Assembly (NCBI GenBank): GCA_002167435.2
Contig: NHBR02000002.1
Location: 1-64,000, forward strand
Reading direction: 5' to 3'
DNA: 64,000 nucleotides
From: Allomuricauda sp. TMED12
GTDB taxonomy: Bacteria > Bacteroidota > Bacteroidia > Flavobacteriales > Flavobacteriaceae
The notes under the pieces are model-generated. The model did no database searches. It saw only the letters and a program-made list of their open reading frames with translations, and was not told where the DNA came from. Both the position numbers and the translations under genes were made by a program. The number at the start of each line of letters is the position of its first letter. Position 1 is the first letter of the stretch. Of this stretch, positions 41,870 through 49,826 are shown one piece after another.

Positions 41870-42532
41870 ATGTCCGATAACAAAATCCATGTTTACCTAA
41901 TGCCGGGAATGGCTGCCAATTCTTCTATTTTTGAAGACATCAAACTTCCCAAAAATCAATTTGAAACCCATGCTTTGGACTGGTTTGTCCCTGAAAAGGG
42001 GATGAGCCTTATTGATTATGCCGAAAGGATGTGTGAGAAAATAACGGAACCCAGCCCTGTTTTGCTGGGAGTTTCTTTTGGTGCTATGTTGGTGCAGGAG
42101 ATGGCTAAGATTATCCCCACGCGAAAAGTTATTGTGGTATCATCGGTTAAAAGCAAACACGAGCTCCCCAAGCGAATGATTTTCGCCAAATACACCAAGG
42201 TGCACAAATTGTTGCCTACGGGCTTGGTGAACAATGTGGAATTGTTGGCCAAATACGCTTTTGGTGAAACAGTGACCAAGCGCTTGCATTTATACGAGAA
42301 GTATTTATCGATACGCGACAAATATTATATTGATTGGTCTATCGATCAAATTGTAAATTGGGACCAAGAAGTTGTACCAAACAATGTAATCCATATACAA
42401 GGAGATCGGGATGCCGTTTTCCCAATAAGCAAAATCAAGGATTGTATTCCAGTAAAAAACGGAACGCATACCATGATCATTCATCGGTATAGATGGTTTA
42501 ATGATCATCTACCCACAATTATTTTGGAATAA
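41870..42532 (+). CDS. Alpha/beta hydrolase
   Basis: 220 residues from ATG 41870 (MSDNKIHVYLMPGMAANSS). The nucleophile elbow is GVSFGAM (Ser within GxSxG), the acid region is VIHIQGDRDAVFPI and the His is in VKNGTHTMIIHRYR. There is no signal peptide, so it is cytoplasmic. It ends 50 bp before the transglycosylase gene on the same strand; a possible operon. Substrate unknown. Confidence 0.83.
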   Translation: MSDNKIHVYLMPGMAANSSIFEDIKLPKNQFETHALDWFVPEKGMSLIDYAERMCEKITEPSPVLLGVSFGAMLVQEMAKIIPTRKVIVVSSVKSKHELPKRMIFAKYTKVHKLLPTGLVNNVELLAKYAFGETVTKRLHLYEKYLSIRDKYYIDWSIDQIVNWDQEVVPNNVIHIQGDRDAVFPISKIKDCIPVKNGTHTMIIHRYRWFNDHLPTIILE

Positions 42533-42581
42533 TTTCGTCTATATAATAGTATCTTTACATAGGAATATTAATTGGGAAGAC

Positions 42582-43550
42582 ATGAAACACTTAAAAAACA
42601 TATTGGCTTTTATTGGATTGATAGCCGTTGTGAGCACGTTGATTTTTGCCGTGCAGTCGAATGAAATGGATGAAAAACCGGAAGTTAAAGAGTCCGAAAA
42701 GGTTACCACGGATAAGAATGTAGCGGAGACGTATCAGATTAGCGCTATTGAAATTCCAGAGGATCTCAATTTTGCAGGGGAAACTGTTCCACAAGAAGAC
42801 CCGGAGATTATGGAGCGTGTGGATCGCGAGTTTTTGGTGAATACTTATTGGCAGTCGAATGCACTTTTGTTAATGAAAAGGGCCAATAAATACTTCCCGA
42901 TTATAGAACCAATCCTTAAAAAGAATGGAATCCCGGATGATTTTAAATATTTGGCTGTTGCAGAGAGTGGTCTGCAAAATGTTGTTTCACCTGCCGGAGC
43001 CACTGGTTTTTGGCAGATTATGAAAGCAACCGGAAGAGAATATGGCCTTGAGGTTAACGATAATGTGGATGAACGCTACCATGTTGAAAAAGCCACGCAG
43101 GTGGCCTGCGATTACCTCAAAAAATGGAAAGACCGTTTTGGAAGCTGGACCTTGACGGCCGCAGCTTACAATGCTGGACCTGCCGGAGTGCAAAAATATA
43201 TGGACATTCAGCAAGTGGATGACTATTACGATCTATTGCTGGGTCAGGAGACAGGGCGCTATGTATTCCGTATTTTGGCCATTAAAGAAATTATCTCCAA
43301 TCGAGACAAGTATGGGTTTCAGTTAGAAGACGAGGATATGTACGAAAAAGTGCCCACATTTAAGGTGGAAGTGGATACCGCTGTGACCAACTGGGCCGAT
43401 TTCGCATCTCTTTACGAAATCAACTACAAAGTATTGAAGCGACACAATCCTTGGTTGCGCGAGCCACATTTGAACAATTCCTCAAGAAAAAAGTACACCA
43501 TCGAAATTCCGAACAAAGGGTATTACCGAGTGGGAAATGCTGGGAAGTAG
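42582..43550 (+). CDS. MltD-like membrane-bound lytic transglycosylase
   Basis: 322 residues from ATG 42582. The N-terminal helix (ILAFIGLIAVVSTLIFAV) is a signal anchor. The SLT goose-lysozyme-like domain has the catalytic Glu in FKYLAVAESGLQNVVSPAGATG, then FWQIMKATGREYGL and LTAAAYNAGPAGVQKYM. The last 60 residues are LysM-like (FASLYEINYKVLKRHNPWL). It cleaves peptidoglycan in the periplasm. The final 82 bases are repeated almost exactly at 45893-45974. Confidence 0.9.
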   Translation: MKHLKNILAFIGLIAVVSTLIFAVQSNEMDEKPEVKESEKVTTDKNVAETYQISAIEIPEDLNFAGETVPQEDPEIMERVDREFLVNTYWQSNALLLMKRANKYFPIIEPILKKNGIPDDFKYLAVAESGLQNVVSPAGATGFWQIMKATGREYGLEVNDNVDERYHVEKATQVACDYLKKWKDRFGSWTLTAAAYNAGPAGVQKYMDIQQVDDYYDLLLGQETGRYVFRILAIKEIISNRDKYGFQLEDEDMYEKVPTFKVEVDTAVTNWADFASLYEINYKVLKRHNPWLREPHLNNSSRKKYTIEIPNKGYYRVGNAGK

Positions 43551-43758
43551 GTAGGCTGCCTGAAAATAAGAGGATGGAAAAAGTATAGATTTCAGGAGTT
43601 GACAAAGCAAGGAAGAAGGACATAACGACTACATTATAGGTTAGGTTTTGTATTTGAGTAAAAAGAAAAGCAATTTGTCGAATAAACTTACATTTAACCA
43701 AGCTTTTTAAGTCACGTATACCTTAAAATTGATACTTTAGGGGAACTAAATTTTACTG

Positions 43759-45624
43759 ATGTTCAAAAAGTTTCTACCAAAGTTTTTTTCAATTTTCTTC
43801 ATATTTTTTTTAGGCTGCAGTGAGCAGGAAAGTAACGATGCTCCCCCCGATATTGATAACCAAGAGATAAACCTTGACCCCCAGGATATTGAACTTTCTA
43901 TACAGGACGGTGCCTATTTGGAGGATGAAGAAATTCTAATTGGCCTACCAGAAGGACTGAACTACGGTTTGATAAAAGTTTATGTGAACTCGGAAGTAAT
44001 TTTGGAATTGCCAAAGGGTGAATTGATTTTTAGAGTAACCCCTGAAAATTTCAATGATGGAATAGTGGAAATGAAAATTGAAATCATTGGGAATGGCAAA
44101 GTTATTGGAACCAAAGTCGCAAATATAAAAATTGACAATAACGGACCCCAAGTGGATTTTGGAATTTTAATTGAAGATAGTTCCATTTGTGAAGGACTTT
44201 CTTTGCCTTTAAATATATCAGATCAAATATCAGAGATAACATCGATAAAAGCTTTTTGGGGCCAAGAGGAGATAGAACAATTCTCTCCGATGGATTCAGA
44301 CTTTTCTTTTGAGTTTGACTCTAGTAAGCTTGGAATCGGTGAACAATATCTGAAATTGGAACTTGAAGATGCGAGAAATAACATTACCGTAGATTCTATT
44401 CTGGTCAAATTGGCGAAAAAAATCACACAGATTAATTTTCCTGATGGTTTTGTCAGGCCAGGTGTGGACGAAATTCATGTGATTTTATCAGCATCAGACG
44501 GAAGTTTTATTAACTCGGTAACACATTCTTCTGGATTGGCTGAAACTTTGCCCATATGTTCCGATATAGAAATTGGTGAAGCAGACGAATTTATATTAAC
44601 CTTTGTATCTGATTTCGAAGATGTCGTGTATGGCATCTACCCTTATCATAACTTAACTCTTGACGCAGTTGGTTCTGAGATTAATTTGGCAAAAAGGTCT
44701 GGAGGGTTAAGCCCAGGCACTGTAAATATCGAATTGCCCGACTACAAAGAAGGCGATTACATTAGAGCTTCCGGGCAATGGAGTTCTGCTTTGAATTATC
44801 AAGGAAACATTCTTAGCGGACATTTTTCAAGGAATTATACGCTTGAAAGTCTTGGGTCGAATAAATTTTTTATTATGAATTTCAATCCAGACATAATCGA
44901 AAGCTACAAATGGGCATTCATCGAAGACCCGCATACTGTTTTTAAATTGGAGGATAAAGATTTTAGTGCCAACGATGTCATAAATTCAAATATCGAGATG
45001 GTTGGGACAAATTTGGACCCATTTTTGGCTGTTTATGGATTTGAAAATGAAACTCATTTTGACGCTATGGTTTCTCATATGATTTATTGGAATCCAAGGT
45101 TAAATAGATTTAACGGGTATGACTATTCATACGCCAATATATTCTACGATGTTCTTTACTCCATAAAAGTAAGTAACTACAGTATTGAAGGTATAGGTGC
45201 CCCTCCATCAACAGTTACTGTTCCAAATAGTTCTATTGATTATTCTTTTCAAAACAATACGTTATCGTTTTCTGGATTGCCAAATTTTGAAGTAGGTAGA
45301 GCTCAATTTAGAAATACCGATAATGCCCATATATTTGTGGAAATGTATTTTAATGGAACATCTTCGGATATTGTTATGCCAGAGATGCCTGAATTTCTTG
45401 GAAATCAAGTTACGGATATTGTCAATGGTGGCGCTTTAGATATAGTACAATGTGTAGCTGAAGATTATACCTACATCAATAATTATAAAGAATATATAAC
45501 GAATATCGTAGTGCCATCAATCCCTTTTTATAAGGTTTCACCGAGTAGGGAGCGGATTTTCAAATCATCTGTTAGCACTTCATTACTGCCAATGACTGAG
45601 TTTCCATTTTATGAGAGATTTTAA
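43759..45624 (+). CDS. Large AT-rich lipoprotein of unknown function
   Basis: 621 residues, lipoprotein (FFSIFFIFFLGCSEQE, Cys about residue 20). Residues about 55-130 and 145-230 look like Ig-like or Big domains (LIKVYVNSEVILELPKGE; SSICEGLSLPLNISDQISEI). The remaining 390 residues are beta-rich and unrecognised. The gene is AT-richer than flanking housekeeping genes and sits in the first gap of the duplicated mltD/TPR junction, both signs of an accessory gene. No enzymatic motif is apparent. Confidence 0.75.
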   Translation: MFKKFLPKFFSIFFIFFLGCSEQESNDAPPDIDNQEINLDPQDIELSIQDGAYLEDEEILIGLPEGLNYGLIKVYVNSEVILELPKGELIFRVTPENFNDGIVEMKIEIIGNGKVIGTKVANIKIDNNGPQVDFGILIEDSSICEGLSLPLNISDQISEITSIKAFWGQEEIEQFSPMDSDFSFEFDSSKLGIGEQYLKLELEDARNNITVDSILVKLAKKITQINFPDGFVRPGVDEIHVILSASDGSFINSVTHSSGLAETLPICSDIEIGEADEFILTFVSDFEDVVYGIYPYHNLTLDAVGSEINLAKRSGGLSPGTVNIELPDYKEGDYIRASGQWSSALNYQGNILSGHFSRNYTLESLGSNKFFIMNFNPDIIESYKWAFIEDPHTVFKLEDKDFSANDVINSNIEMVGTNLDPFLAVYGFENETHFDAMVSHMIYWNPRLNRFNGYDYSYANIFYDVLYSIKVSNYSIEGIGAPPSTVTVPNSSIDYSFQNNTLSFSGLPNFEVGRAQFRNTDNAHIFVEMYFNGTSSDIVMPEMPEFLGNQVTDIVNGGALDIVQCVAEDYTYINNYKEYITNIVVPSIPFYKVSPSRERIFKSSVSTSLLPMTEFPFYERF

Positions 45625-45647
45625 TAAGGGAACTTTTTTCCCTTTTT
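45625..45647 (+). terminator. Weak terminator after the large lipoprotein
   Basis: AAGGG and CCCTT arms around AACTTTTTT with a following T-run, directly after the stop. Confidence 0.5.
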
Positions 45648-45723
45648 GAATTAAAAAACTGGTTGGTTACACCCGAGGCTTGGACGAAGTAGGTGTTTAA
45701 AAGACAAGACATCTATTTCAATC

Positions 45724-45863
45724 TTAAATCTTCTTCATTTGCTGCAGTATCATCTTGATCAGCTCAGTAAGCATGTTGTTCTTGGTCTCTTTGAATAGCT
45801 TGGCAGCATGAATTCTAAGCTTTTGTCCGGGAATGCACACAAAGCTTAGTTTTGGTATCGCCA
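45724..45863 (-). pseudogene. Degraded 3' end of a TPR membrane-protein gene
   Basis: The minus-strand frame reads ...PKLSFVCIPGQKLRIHAAKL...KNNMLTELIKMILQQMKKI and stop. It aligns with the last 45-50 codons of the intact gene at 49311-49826 (...AKLSLAGIAMQKRRKREATQ...KNNMLTDQIKMMQQQMKKI). There are several substitutions and a 12-base in-frame deletion, and the homology stops near 45863. No 5' part of the gene is present. It abuts the mltD remnant at 45866. Confidence 0.8.
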
Positions 45864-45865
45864 CC

Positions 45866-45974
45866 CCGCAACCCTTGGTTGTGTTAGCCATATTTGAACA
45901 ATTCCTCAAGAAAAAAGTACACCATCGAAATTCCGAACAAAGGGTATTACCGAGTTGGAAATGCTGGGAAGTAG
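45866..45974 (+). pseudogene. Duplicate 3' end of the mltD-like gene
   Basis: The last 82 bases (45893-45974) match the end of the mltD-like gene (43469-43550) with one visible mismatch, including the TAG stop. About 27 bases before that match with several changes. Homology ends exactly at the stop. There is no start; it is a fragment. Confidence 0.9.
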
Positions 45975-46013
45975 TTTTTTTGATTTATAAAGTGGGTAAT
46001 AATGGGGTTTAAG

Positions 46014-46670
46014 CTATTTAACCCTCAGCTTTAATGCATCATAAGAATCACTTCTTATCCCGATTAGGCCATGTTTGGTTTCCCCTTTTTTTATGACAGT
46101 ACCGTTAATGTTGTATTTCAATAACTCAGTCCTGAATTTTTTGTTGGCCGAACCAGCAGCTATCATATTTCCACCGGCTAAACCGGGCCCCAATACCAAA
46201 CCTATAGGTGTTGAACTCGTTTGTTCGGGTAAACCATACGAATTTGTCTTTGTGGTGTAAAGGTTTAACGGGGTCAAAAGCAGGTACCACAAATAGGAAG
46301 CGGGACTTTGTTTTAAGGTCTTAAAGACTTTTTCATTGTCCATCACATAAACGTTGTAATCATTTTCGAACGCTAACGTGACATCTTTGCCAAATGTTAC
46401 ATCCCTGTTCGAGTTGTTGGTAATTTTAATGGCAACCAATTTGACTCCCTTTTTTTCCTCTTTCTTCTCATATTTCTTGTGCAGCAATTCATATCTGTAT
46501 TGAAGAGTCAGTCCATCAACTTCGTTTTTGGAGATATAATTGATTGTTTTTGGTTGAATCATTTTATAGCCTGAAGCGCAGCTTGTCAAGCATAGGACGA
46601 TAACAAATACAGAGGAAGCTTTAATAAATTTCAAAATGGTATTGTGTTTTAATTGATTGCTCTTGGTCAT
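46014..46670 (-). CDS. Hypothetical lipoprotein
   Basis: 218 residues from ATG 46670 with a lipoprotein signal (SSVFVIVLCLTSCASGYK). The mature part opens IQPKTINYISKNEVDGLTLQYRYELL and continues VKLVAIKITNNSNRDVTFGKDV, then a Gly-rich hydrophobic patch (PIGLVLGPGLAGGNMIAAGSANKKF). It resembles FixG-like or small beta-sandwich lipoproteins of Bacteroidota, with no named family that I recognise. It lies in the second gap of the duplicated junction. Confidence 0.7.
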   Translation of the reverse strand: MTKSNQLKHNTILKFIKASSVFVIVLCLTSCASGYKMIQPKTINYISKNEVDGLTLQYRYELLHKKYEKKEEKKGVKLVAIKITNNSNRDVTFGKDVTLAFENDYNVYVMDNEKVFKTLKQSPASYLWYLLLTPLNLYTTKTNSYGLPEQTSSTPIGLVLGPGLAGGNMIAAGSANKKFRTELLKYNINGTVIKKGETKHGLIGIRSDSYDALKLRVK

Positions 46671-46686
46671 CGATTGGAAATTTGAT

Positions 46687-46848
46687 ATGAGCGGCGAAGA
46701 AATAAGAAAAAAGGTAAAAAAGCACCAACAATTGACCAATGCCCCATATCAATTGACGGATGTGGACTTCATAGGAATTTATACCAATAAGGTTATGGTC
46801 CAGTTTTTGACTAAGATGTGTTGCCAGAGGAGAGTTAGCCTATCTTAA
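46687..46848 (+). other. Short open frame, possible gene remnant
   Basis: 53 codons from ATG 46687 (MSGEEIRKKVKKHQQLTNAP). The composition looks protein-like, but it is antisense to its neighbours, has no recognised family and shows no ribosome-binding site. It may be a remnant; it is also the only content of the 174-base space between the lipoprotein and M23 genes. Confidence 0.25.
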
Positions 46849-47504
46849 AACTTAAACAAAAAATATGGCGAAGGGAAATACGTTTCCACTTTTGGCAGTA
46901 ATTCTGGCGAAATATATCCCCAATCCATATATCCAGCATCAATCGCTGCTTGGGTCAGGATTTGTAAATGCACATGGCAAAACCAACCCCCACTATCACT
47001 TTCTTCCCCAATATGCGCAAACTTTTGACCTACCTTGATTATTTCACCAGTACTCACTACGTGCGGTGTTTTTAAGTGCCCGTAGAAAGAATAAAAGACG
47101 ACTCCATTAATATCATGTTTTAGGATAATATAGCCCCCATAATTGCCAACCGTGGTTTCTTTCCCTGTCTTGTAGACCTCAGCATCTAAAGGGGAAAACA
47201 TAGGAGTATTAAAAGGCGTAATAATATCCAGGCCAAGGTGATAATACCGTTTTTCTTCAATAATATTGGGGTAGGCCCGTAGGAGTGTTTTTCGTTCTTC
47301 CAAATACTTGCCAATGCCCCATTGGTGGTTAGAAGCCTCCAATTCATCAAAAATCATGGTATTGAACTGTTCAAAATCAAACAGGGTGTACTCCAGAGTT
47401 TTGGGGTTGTTGGATGAAAAATCAAAGATATAAGGTGCTCCTTTTAAGAAATCCCCAAATAATGGGTAGATGTTGACACCATTGAGGTTGAGTGGGTAAT
47501 ACAT
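46845..47504 (-). CDS. M23-family peptidase-like protein without signal peptide
   Basis: 219 residues. The C-terminal LytM/M23 core is complete: HLGLDI (first His and Asp), SFYGHLKTPHVV and CHVHLQIL (HxH), with the usual GETVxxGQ-like segment (STGEIIKVGQKFAHIG). The N-terminal 90 residues are unlike known M23 attachments. No signal peptide or membrane helix is visible, which is odd for a peptidoglycan endopeptidase; either it leaves by another route or it is a non-peptidase member. The stop lies within the small plus-strand frame noted at 46687. Confidence 0.82.
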   Translation of the reverse strand: MYYPLNLNGVNIYPLFGDFLKGAPYIFDFSSNNPKTLEYTLFDFEQFNTMIFDELEASNHQWGIGKYLEERKTLLRAYPNIIEEKRYYHLGLDIITPFNTPMFSPLDAEVYKTGKETTVGNYGGYIILKHDINGVVFYSFYGHLKTPHVVSTGEIIKVGQKFAHIGEESDSGGWFCHVHLQILTQAAIDAGYMDWGYISPELLPKVETYFPSPYFLFKF

Positions 47505-47756
47505 ATTGAAGTGTGAAAAAGGATAAAGCTACACATAATTAGGGATAGGACGAGTAGCTGAACATGCATTCGATGATTTTTAGTGAACCAGACAGAACAA
47601 TGGTTATTACTCCGTTGAGAATTCATGGAAATAGACGGGAAAGTTTTACCATAATGGCATTAAATCCCTTTGAATTAATATCGCCCAGAATGATTTTATG
47701 ATTTTTTTAAGAAAATTAGTATACTTACACACTTGAAATTTTAGGGAACATAGATT

Positions 47757-49241
47757 ATGAAGAAAAGAATTATTGCCATTTGTCTTGTTGCAGGGCTGCT
47801 TTTGGTTGGTTTTCAGGTGGCAAACAACCACCTACACTTGCTACAATCCCCCGGAGTGGTAATTTCAGATTATGTAGAACCGGATTATGAACTAGGCCCA
47901 AGCCATGTTGATTCACTATTGCCATTTCCTGATGTTAAAAAAGGAGAGCGTACTCCATTTGATCTTTGGCGCTATGGAGGAAAGGGAAAAACATCGTTCA
48001 CAACTCCTGATTTGCGTATGTCGTGGGAAGAGTGGTTGGCCTATAATAAAAAGCAGAAGCCGGAACTTATGGCAGATGTGAGGGAATACATGGACTCACG
48101 TTACGATTTCAACGGTGAAGTGTATGAGGGCAAGTTCATGTCTGGTGGAAGAAATCCAATCATGAAAGGGCCGATTACTAGATTGCCTAAAGGTGTCAAG
48201 TCCTTTGAGGAATTGTCCGAGCTTACGGCATATGAAATCAGGGAAAGGGATTTGTTCCCTTTTAAACCGTTGGCTCACCCGTTGGCATCAACCGCCCATA
48301 TGGTGTTTCCGGACAATTGGAACGAAGCCCATCCAGAGCATGTCAGAATCGATATGGATCATGACTTTCCAGTGGAGTACCTTCCCGAGTTTCCACCACC
48401 GATGTTTTTGACAACACACAAGGAGTTGGGCGATGTTACCAAAGGTAGGGAGGTGACCATTGCCAATTATTACGAGATTTTCAATGGTCTACTTACTCCA
48501 GAACAAATGGAGGGATTAAAGGAACTGTTGCGTCCATCTCCAACCACCTGGTTCAATCATACGACCCATAGGGTGACCGAGGCCCCCAGTGCCGGGGTAT
48601 CCTGTTTTTCATGTCACGTAAATGGGCATACCAATGGTGCTTTTGAGCTTGGTCCGGATAGTCGTCCCAACTTGGCAAGGTTGAGAGTGGGAACACCGAC
48701 CATGCGCGGAAATTATAATTTGATGCAGTTGTCCTCTAAAAGATCTATACGTAGTATGGACCACTTTGCAGAGGTTGAGGAATATTTTGATGGTGACCCG
48801 GGCATGCAACAGCACATTGGTCCGCGGAGTCAAAAGAGAGAAGTAACTAACCGTATGGGAGACTTTAATTCTATCCTTGATTTTCCGCCAGCACCTAAAC
48901 TCGACGGTATGGGGAACTTGATTCCTGAAAAATCCACTAAGCAAGAATTGTTGGGGCAGGAATTGTTCCGCGGGAAAGCCAAATGTGTCCAATGCCATTA
49001 TGGTCCTGCTTTTGTGGATGATTATATGCACGATTTAAAAGTAGAGCGTTTTTATAAAGGTCGGCCCGAAGGACCGATTAAAACTTTTCCTTTGAGAGGT
49101 ATTAAAGATTCGCCACCTTATCTTCACGATGATAGATTGCCTACTTTGGACGATGCCACCGAATTTTTTAATGTTGTTCTCGAGTTAGGTTTGACCAAAG
49201 AGGAGAAGGATGCCATCACAGCTTATATGATGTGTTTATAA
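47757..49241 (+). CDS. Di-haem c-type cytochrome (CcP/MauG-like)
   Basis: 494 residues with an N-terminal signal anchor (IIAICLVAGLLLVGFQV). Two haem-c motifs are present: CFSCH at 283-287 and CVQCH at 410-414. The end matches cytochrome-c peroxidase-type proteins: FPLRGIKDSPPYLHDDRLPTLDDATEFFN, then GLTKEEKDAITAYM. The long N-terminal half (30-270) is not part of standard CcP. It should be a periplasmic electron carrier or peroxidase; reductant and substrate are unknown. Second-gap cargo of the duplicated junction. Confidence 0.85.
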   Translation: MKKRIIAICLVAGLLLVGFQVANNHLHLLQSPGVVISDYVEPDYELGPSHVDSLLPFPDVKKGERTPFDLWRYGGKGKTSFTTPDLRMSWEEWLAYNKKQKPELMADVREYMDSRYDFNGEVYEGKFMSGGRNPIMKGPITRLPKGVKSFEELSELTAYEIRERDLFPFKPLAHPLASTAHMVFPDNWNEAHPEHVRIDMDHDFPVEYLPEFPPPMFLTTHKELGDVTKGREVTIANYYEIFNGLLTPEQMEGLKELLRPSPTTWFNHTTHRVTEAPSAGVSCFSCHVNGHTNGAFELGPDSRPNLARLRVGTPTMRGNYNLMQLSSKRSIRSMDHFAEVEEYFDGDPGMQQHIGPRSQKREVTNRMGDFNSILDFPPAPKLDGMGNLIPEKSTKQELLGQELFRGKAKCVQCHYGPAFVDDYMHDLKVERFYKGRPEGPIKTFPLRGIKDSPPYLHDDRLPTLDDATEFFNVVLELGLTKEEKDAITAYMMCL

Positions 49242-49256
49242 GACTAATAACATCTT

Positions 49257-49277
49257 AGGGTTGTTTTGATCAACCCT
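49257..49277. terminator. Hairpin between convergent genes
   Basis: AGGGTTG and CAACCCT separated by TTTTGAT, 16 bases after the cytochrome stop; GGAAAAAT follows. Confidence 0.5.
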
Positions 49278-49310
49278 TAGGAAAAATGAAAGATAAGAAG
49301 GGAAGAGAGA

Positions 49311-49826
49311 CTAAATCTTCTTCATCTGCTGCTGCATCATCTTGATTTGGTCGGTAAGCATGTTGTTTTTGTCCAACTTCTTGGCTTCCTTCAATAATTG
49401 GGTCGCTTCACGCTTTCTGCGCTTTTGCATAGCAATGCCCGCCAGGCTTAATTTGGCCATGGCCACATCATAATCCATGGTCAAACCAAATTTAAGGGCC
49501 TTTTTAAAGTACTTTTCGGCCTGTGTCAGGTTTTTTTGTGAATAGATGATACCGTGCAAGTAGTTAAAGTACCCTTGTTGTTTTTTGATCAAGGCAGCCT
49601 CAGGATTCTTTATTTTATCAAGCCATTTTTGAACCCCATCCATATCTTGCTTTCTCATTTTAAGAAAGGCCAATAGGATAAACTCATTTCTAAAGTAAAG
49701 AAAAATGAATACGAGGGAGAGCAAGATCAACGCAATTCCGTTGCCAATGTTGCCTTCCACAAACTGATAAACAGCATAAGCAATGATAAGAACGGCAATA
49801 ACGAGCTTGATATTTTTATTGAACAT
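49311..49826 (-). CDS. Membrane protein with TPR-like repeats
   Basis: 171 residues. Two N-terminal hydrophobic helices (IKLVIAVLIIAYAVYQFV; GIALILLSLVFIFLYF) are followed by a cytoplasmic helical-repeat domain with TPR-like units (FNYLHGIIYSQKNLTQAEKYFKKAL; AMAKLSLAGIAMQKRRKREATQ) and a Met/Gln-rich end. A degraded copy of its 3' end lies at 45724-45863. Its role is unknown; divergent from rpmH, it is in a conserved-looking chromosomal spot. Confidence 0.75.
   Translation of the reverse strand: MFNKNIKLVIAVLIIAYAVYQFVEGNIGNGIALILLSLVFIFLYFRNEFILLAFLKMRKQDMDGVQKWLDKIKNPEAALIKKQQGYFNYLHGIIYSQKNLTQAEKYFKKALKFGLTMDYDVAMAKLSLAGIAMQKRRKREATQLLKEAKKLDKNNMLTDQIKMMQQQMKKI

Follow-up and report, generated by a model that had tools for sequence, protein, structure and literature searches.

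Gene-tail relics at the mltD/TPR junction of Flagellimonas suggest addition of accessory genes by recombination in flanking core genes

The window analysed here is the whole stretch of 64,000 nucleotides at the start of contig NHBR02000002.1 (positions 1 to 64,000, forward strand) of Allomuricauda sp. TMED12 (GenBank assembly GCA_002167435.2), whose 4.34-Mb genome belongs to the genus Flagellimonas (= Allomuricauda/Muricauda). Its subject is a junction between two convergent core genes, an mltD-like transglycosylase gene and a gene for a TPR-like protein, with accessory genes (cargo) and decayed 3′ ends of both core genes (relics, written mltD′ and TPR′) lying between them. The preliminary description of this DNA, made by a model from the letters alone, had named the genes rightly as an SLT/MltD-like transglycosylase, an M23 peptidase and a TPR-like protein, and its cytochrome is weakly MauG/di-heme-peroxidase-like. 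The features of the junction are as follows, with cargo clusters numbered c0, c1 and so on.

42501..43550, plus strand: intact mltD-like transglycosylase open reading frame (ORF) with an SLT domain (Pfam SLT, E 2e-21), the left core gene; a later ATG lies at 42582
43445..43550, plus strand: repeated 3′ end of mltD, with its copy at 45869-45974
43759..45624, plus strand: 621-aa lipoprotein (predicted by eye) without a Pfam or NCBIfam family, read as newer cargo
45724..45868, minus strand: TPR′ relic, a decayed 3′ end of the TPR gene (nucleotide alignment and profile)
45869..45974, plus strand: mltD′ relic, read as an older mltD 3′ end (nucleotide alignment)
46014..46739, minus strand: small lipoprotein, cluster c2, read as older cargo; the coding start is probably near 46664
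46730..46757, minus strand: operator-like motif GTCAATT-N14-GTCAATT upstream of the c2 gene, 0 mismatches
46845..47504, minus strand: M23 peptidase, cluster c0, read as older cargo; present in 25/67 genus loci
47757..49241, plus strand: MauG/di-heme-peroxidase-like cytochrome (weak family match), cluster c1, read as older cargo; 7/67 genus loci
49311..49826, minus strand: intact TPR-like protein, the right core gene; TPR models match below Pfam cut-offs only

From left to right the order is [mltD, 621-aa gene, TPR′] and then [mltD′, c2 lipoprotein, M23, cytochrome, TPR], and the two relics are directly butted, with the minus-strand TPR′ first. It had been noted beforehand that the last 82 bases of mltD recur at 45893-45974 with one mismatch and that a degraded TPR 3′ end lies on the minus strand; nucleotide alignment to the parents bears out both, and the fragments derive from mltD and TPR. 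Over its last 106 nt, mltD is identical to 45869-45974 at 100/106 positions, and the 6 mismatches are clustered, with 5 among the first 24 nt and a single one in the remaining 82 (Fisher p = 0.002, with the cut at 24 nt chosen after the mismatches were seen). TPR′ aligns gap-free to the TPR gene over 60 nt at 87%; a longer stretch gives 106 identities, 33 mismatches and 17 gap positions, and a TPR-tail profile matches 45724-45868 with an E-value of about 1e-22. Where the two relics meet, a 10-nt microhomology is common to the parent genes (49472-49481 and 43446-43455, 9/10; random P about 5e-4, for a position picked by eye). In a scan of 47 ORFs over the 64-kb window, TPR′ and mltD′ were the sole noncoding gene-end copies within 12 kb listed; with only these two copies, and a similar architecture in a second genome (locus L115), a chance repeat was ruled out. 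An assembly artefact is unlikely, as separate assemblies contain relics, two of these assemblies consisting of one contig (G004, locus L073; G082, locus L106, in which there is a run of N), and as the window's TPR fragment is decayed, not copied. Duplication of whole genes was also rejected, as tails of this kind, and no longer parts of mltD or TPR, were seen in the gaps within the stretches examined.

The junction was compared across 71 genomes of the genus, where conserved flanks enclose variable cargo and 67 carry mltD and TPR on one contig. Outside the 67 are G011 (no mltD in the stretch), G063 (contig end), and G029 and G013 (genes on separate contigs); L118 was counted within the 67 though a contig end cuts its TPR gene. 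A match to mltD was obtained in 56/59 genomes, some via paralogues only, and to TPR in 59/60. The gap between the two genes ranges from 3 to 8066 bp over the 67 genus loci (the largest, in L106, includes the run of N) and exceeds 500 bp in 52 of them. Bare convergent junctions (≤90 bp) and junctions with other cargo, both of which the preliminary description had proposed to look for in relatives, are both present, the bare form at 9/67 loci within the genus and 29/39 outside it. Nine of the ten remaining outside loci hold one plus-strand gene of 487-494 aa (cardiolipin-synthase-like, by eye only), and the tenth, in F. olearia (L162), holds other cargo. Because 29 of the 39 outside loci are bare, the bare convergent junction is probably ancestral.

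Cargo over the 67 loci falls into 81 ORF clusters, 63 with a single member (ORFs of at least 70 aa, picked mechanically, so that some small ones may not be genes), and the commonest is the M23 gene, at 25 loci. The largest stack comprises six cargo ORFs (L138); the two-slot accessory locus that had been suggested for the window is thus not a special device. Most cargo ORFs of at least 100 aa point in the direction of the TPR gene (116 minus vs 10 plus). A Pfam search of 72 cargo proteins found 99 families, of which 25 were listed, including hydrolases, helix-turn-helix proteins and DUF6364; 23 of these have one member, and one FMN reductase family and one helix-turn-helix family have two each. 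A defence library gave 27 families, nearly all of them matched by one of the same 72 proteins, and a PIN-domain/DUF6364 pair (toxin-antitoxin-like) forms a cargo unit in L071 (1213-1884) and L073. No integrase is among the 25 of 99 Pfam families listed, and a Pfam/NCBIfam scan gave no integrase or transposase match among the window's own cargo proteins, in agreement with the earlier remark that none was visible there. One IS110-family transposase was noticed in the gaps (L138, 4144-5199). The 621-aa protein has relatives at 37-44% identity at other loci in other Flagellimonas; a donor of its unit was searched for among relatives and not found. Its structure model has a mean pLDDT of 47 and is confident only for about residues 36-220, which are beta-rich.

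Relics lie in nine further genomes. Those of the mltD 3′ end, found with an mltD-tail nucleotide profile, are all on the plus strand and reach to or near the stop-codon end (L115, E 5e-29; L080, 2e-18; L162, 7e-7; L108, 7e-6; L106, 2e-5), with two weak by profile (L064, E 4e-4; L073, E 0.03, the latter carried by its flank). A candidate in L101 (E 0.03) was dropped, while L073, with a similar E-value, was kept for that flank. The TPR-tail profile found minus-strand TPR 3′ relics in the window, L147 (1e-38) and L063 (7e-10). Both tails stand side by side in the window and in L115, where the TPR tail measures 19 nt and overlaps the beginning of the mltD relic; the other 8 of the 10 relic genomes show the relic of one gene only, mltD in L080, L073, L108, L106, L064 and L162 and TPR in L147 and L063.

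As a control, 80 TPR-flank loci (1.5 Mb, 1264 ORFs) were scanned for copies of any gene part. Same-strand downstream tail copies in noncoding DNA numbered 7, of which 6 derive from mltD or TPR (L191 = L147, L181 = L115, L154 = L063, L167 = L106, L162, and L170 = L108), that is, 6 of about 154 for these two genes vs 1 of about 1110 for others (Fisher p = 2e-5). Other classes of copy gave 19 matches, three of them below 1e-10. One noncoding copy, of 55 nt (85%), lies at L160 7224-7278 (reverse-complement coordinates), upstream of the 219-aa gap gene whose 5′ part it repeats and whose position and length are those of the M23 gene; 5′ fragments thus occur too. At L166 792-824 (reverse-complement coordinates) a 681-aa gene has its 3′ end repeated in noncoding DNA over 33 nt (91%), possibly a third junction with such a scar.

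The preliminary description had explained the window by a tandem duplication of the mltD-TPR junction, with different genes then placed in each gap. That a duplication took place holds good; its sequence of events, duplication in place in one genome, perhaps while the junction was bare, and later filling of each copy, is not favoured. It predicts the same final order of parts, and the butted relics with their microhomology in the window, as well as the overlapping tails in L115, agree with it. The mltD-only and TPR-only relics (8/10) are unexpected under it, unless the partner decayed; L115 looks like two different alleles end to end, and TPR′ of the window is not closest to the window's own TPR gene. 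We consider in-place duplication unlikely, though not negligibly so, and filling after duplication less likely than the stacking of one cargo set upon another.

A relic that is an old tail in its original position should be followed by DNA like that which follows an intact mltD elsewhere. Such matches were found for two genomes: the noncoding DNA from relic to next gene in L073 agrees at 80/89 positions with that from mltD to the same gene in L071, and that of L115 at 68/77 with that of L107, while the DNA behind their own intact mltD genes has no such match. Because this noncoding DNA matches that behind mltD in other species, the sequences identify the relic in L073 and L115 as the older junction, with newer cargo inserted in front of it together with a fresh mltD tail. 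In L115, an allele mltD-c6-TPR′, its left part (c6) as in L082, seems to have been placed before an allele mltD′-c1-c64-TPR, its right part (c1) as in L107/L086. For the window (against L138 and L063) and L080 (against L082 and L115) the match comes from the next gene and is one of gene order only; the c2 gene stands directly behind mltD in L063 and L138. On gene order, then, the right-hand set of the window probably preceded the left-hand unit, which would have brought a new mltD tail with it. For L108, L106, L064 and L162 no relative with matching DNA behind mltD was found. The flanks upstream of the relics in L106, L108, L162 and L073 resembled the flanks before TPR elsewhere, which was first read as allele stacking; since the operator-like motif may explain these likenesses, they are not used as evidence.

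We propose, with a probability of roughly 0.6, that the mltD/TPR junction is an integrase-free hot spot to which genes are added via recombination in the flanking core genes. A fragment from a related strain would bring in the 3′ part of one flanking gene or of both, with cargo adjacent to these parts or enclosed by them, its ends would be joined at a microhomology to form a circle (in the window, TPR tail to mltD tail), and a single homologous crossover in mltD, or in TPR in other genomes, would integrate the circle. Since the incoming copy provides a new 3′ end, the target gene would remain intact; the old 3′ end would be left before the older cargo as a relic and would decay there. With crossover in mltD, the newcomer would lie next to mltD and be followed by the old tail (window, L115, L080, L073 and others), and crossover in TPR would give the mirror image (L147, L063). 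In the window, the newer unit would be [mltD tail, 621-aa lipoprotein, TPR′] and the older one [mltD′, c2 lipoprotein, M23, cytochrome, TPR]. Its mltD′ and TPR′ relics, with the 9/10 microhomology, present a partial target duplication that ends at an end-joined joint.

As to uptake, the window's genome encodes a protein of the Pfam Competence family, which we take to be ComEC-type. In the available part of the literature, Riemerella, a relative, is competent and Flavobacterium johnsoniae is not under the same conditions. A laboratory precedent exists in Escherichia coli, where re-circularised fragments were integrated by single crossover, 56/60 clones were positive in a duplication PCR and 14 sequenced single-crossover clones carried duplications of 109-950 bp (PMC3240628, available portion). 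The same portion of that study describes homology-facilitated illegitimate recombination of a linear fragment, in which one side is homologous, the other is end-joined and no circle forms. It shares the 3-10 bp microhomology seen at most such joints and, we infer, would leave the same product if the illegitimate joint lay upstream of the crossover; the products reported there generally carried deletions, while circles gave duplications, and this route seems to us very unlikely here.

A second convergent junction was met in the genome G004, where a scan of 0.8 Mb (687 ORFs) listed one same-strand downstream tail copy, from an ABC transporter gene. This copy (73 nt at 85%) lies about 8 nt behind a cdaA-like gene (from L252 17451 into L253; G004:C1:477451-483123), and lipoprotein-like genes (by eye) separate it from the intact ABC gene. 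Six further tail copies, from three genes, lie upstream instead. The weak mltD relic seen by profile in G004 was not listed by the scan, so such scans undercount. The cdaA/ABC junction was found in 41 genomes: 36 are without extra cargo, and among the 5 that have it, 4 contain an ABC 3′ relic (the other three scars being in L269, L289 and L291). Four independent scars were rejected, as these relics share adjacent sequence.

Both junctions bear on site-specific integration into the 3′ end of mltD, TPR or the ABC gene by an element carrying a copy of the tail. Such integration would leave the target gene whole and the old tail at the far side of the insert, as observed, and the ABC-locus relics begin at about the same place (76-83 nt). 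Their equal boundary goes with the shared adjacent sequence, however, and hence with one event, and the mltD relic starts vary between genomes, the three best-kept lying at profile positions 68, 133 and 142 of 240, unlike a fixed crossover core. No integrase occurs in the window gap or among the listed families (25/99) elsewhere, and the IS110 transposase is a single one in one genome. We therefore hold site-specific integration to be highly improbable.

Several observations count against recombination in the flanking genes as the route of entry, or limit what it explains. Of the 52 genus loci with a gap above 500 bp, 43 lack an accepted relic, or 44 once the weak L064 is left out, and replacement or decay is needed to explain them. 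Strong copies of other kinds exist in the control scan, namely an upstream tail in L205 and 5′-part copies in L160 and L162. No genome with the 621-aa gene as sole cargo between mltD and TPR was found, the 39 nt between relic and c2 in the window match neither L063 nor L138, and the divergence profile along mltD and TPR reveals neither a clear donor-derived 3′ end nor a clear signal of raised recombination in these flanking genes. About 140 nt of adjoining sequence is common to the four ABC relics, and so they represent one event, spread by descent or transfer, not four. The Competence family also matches in 10/14 control genomes, so that its presence is no proof of competence, and no noncoding gene-end copy lies around the eight other operator-like motif sites of the window's genome.

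The two relics of the window differ in their affinities: mltD′ ranks the window's own mltD 1st of 106 mltD tails, and TPR′ ranks the window's own TPR 27th of 105. In the 82-nt tract 45893-45974, mltD′ has 1 difference from its own mltD and 6 from that of F. lutimaris (L066), the mltD tail closest to the relic after the window's own, and a tail-profile search found no relic in the F. lutimaris gap. Given those 6 differences and the relic-free gap, later conversion of the relic by the intact mltD is probably the simplest reading of the tract, which would then have been renewed after the insertion; a recent crossover within the 82 nt is the alternative. The preliminary description had likewise suggested recent gene conversion, which the 1 vs 6 differences, the clustered mismatches and the 27th rank of TPR′ support and do not prove.

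The motif upstream of the c2 gene (pattern GTCAATTNANANGGGNNATNSGTCAATT) is a pair of GTCAATT repeats with a 21-nt period. Allowing at most 3 mismatches, it occurs at 30 sites in 125,464 nt of mltD-TPR gaps, against 8 in 0.8 Mb of G004 and 5 in 510 kb of flanks outside known gaps, a contrast inflated by derivation of the pattern from the same gaps; the window's whole genome has 9 sites. A reversed-pattern control gave 0 in the gaps, G004, the flanks and the window's genome. Cargo ORFs of at least 100 aa have the motif from -20 to 250 nt upstream, in gene direction, in 26/126 cases from 20 clusters, and several genes downstream of the other eight sites of the window's genome look exported or lipoprotein-like by eye. 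A weaker copy with 4 mismatches lies at 67-94 of the window (plus strand); an ORF for a predicted lipoprotein of 609 aa (158-1987) follows 64 nt downstream. LytTR operators have a two-turn repeat spacing. Those of the direct-repeat type, such as that of AgrA (PMC4227749, as far as the accessible text goes), likewise place two direct repeats upstream of a gene. By this likeness the motif is a candidate operator; none of the 20 LytTR-domain matches in the window's genome is linked to it.

With the motif included, each newcomer might be pictured as a self-sealing unit, consisting of cargo and a replacement tail, often with its own operator and with the old tail as a decaying scar, and such junctions as integrase-free gene stacks. 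We regard this wider picture as doubtful; if true, it would amount to a cassette-like accessory-gene system run by host recombination only. Whatever the unit, the decayed tails show that cargo can be added and not only swapped, they make the side and sometimes the order of arrival readable, and the mechanism they suggest is single crossover combined with end joining. The scar at the second junction and the enrichment of the motif in cargo make route and regulation testable in cultivable marine bacteria.

Genomic islands in gene 3′ ends insert with a copy that replaces the 3′ end of the target, while the old end remains. The mltD/TPR junction has this target-tail replacement in common with them and differs in that no integrase was noticed, no fixed core site is seen and the cargo is one to six ORFs. 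Integrase-free hot spots and single-crossover duplication are already known (PMC5635113 and PMC3240628, in the portions available); in the open literature we found no account of the mltD/TPR junction or of tail relics as stacking scars. The E. coli single-crossover circles show the same partial duplication of a homologous target, in a laboratory assay at lacZ, whereas here natural scars occur at one junction in several species. Hot spots with conserved flanks and rapid cargo turnover, often without mobile-element genes, were described in 2017 (PMC5635113, in the text accessible), and the proposed entry by recombination in flanking core genes is shared with them. The model given there is double recombination at the flanks, whereas here old and new cargo are both kept, and the order of arrival can be read from the tail relics left as scars. 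Integrases are absent from many bacterial hot spots, and the entry of genes into these has largely been deduced from recombination statistics; at this junction the scars survive.

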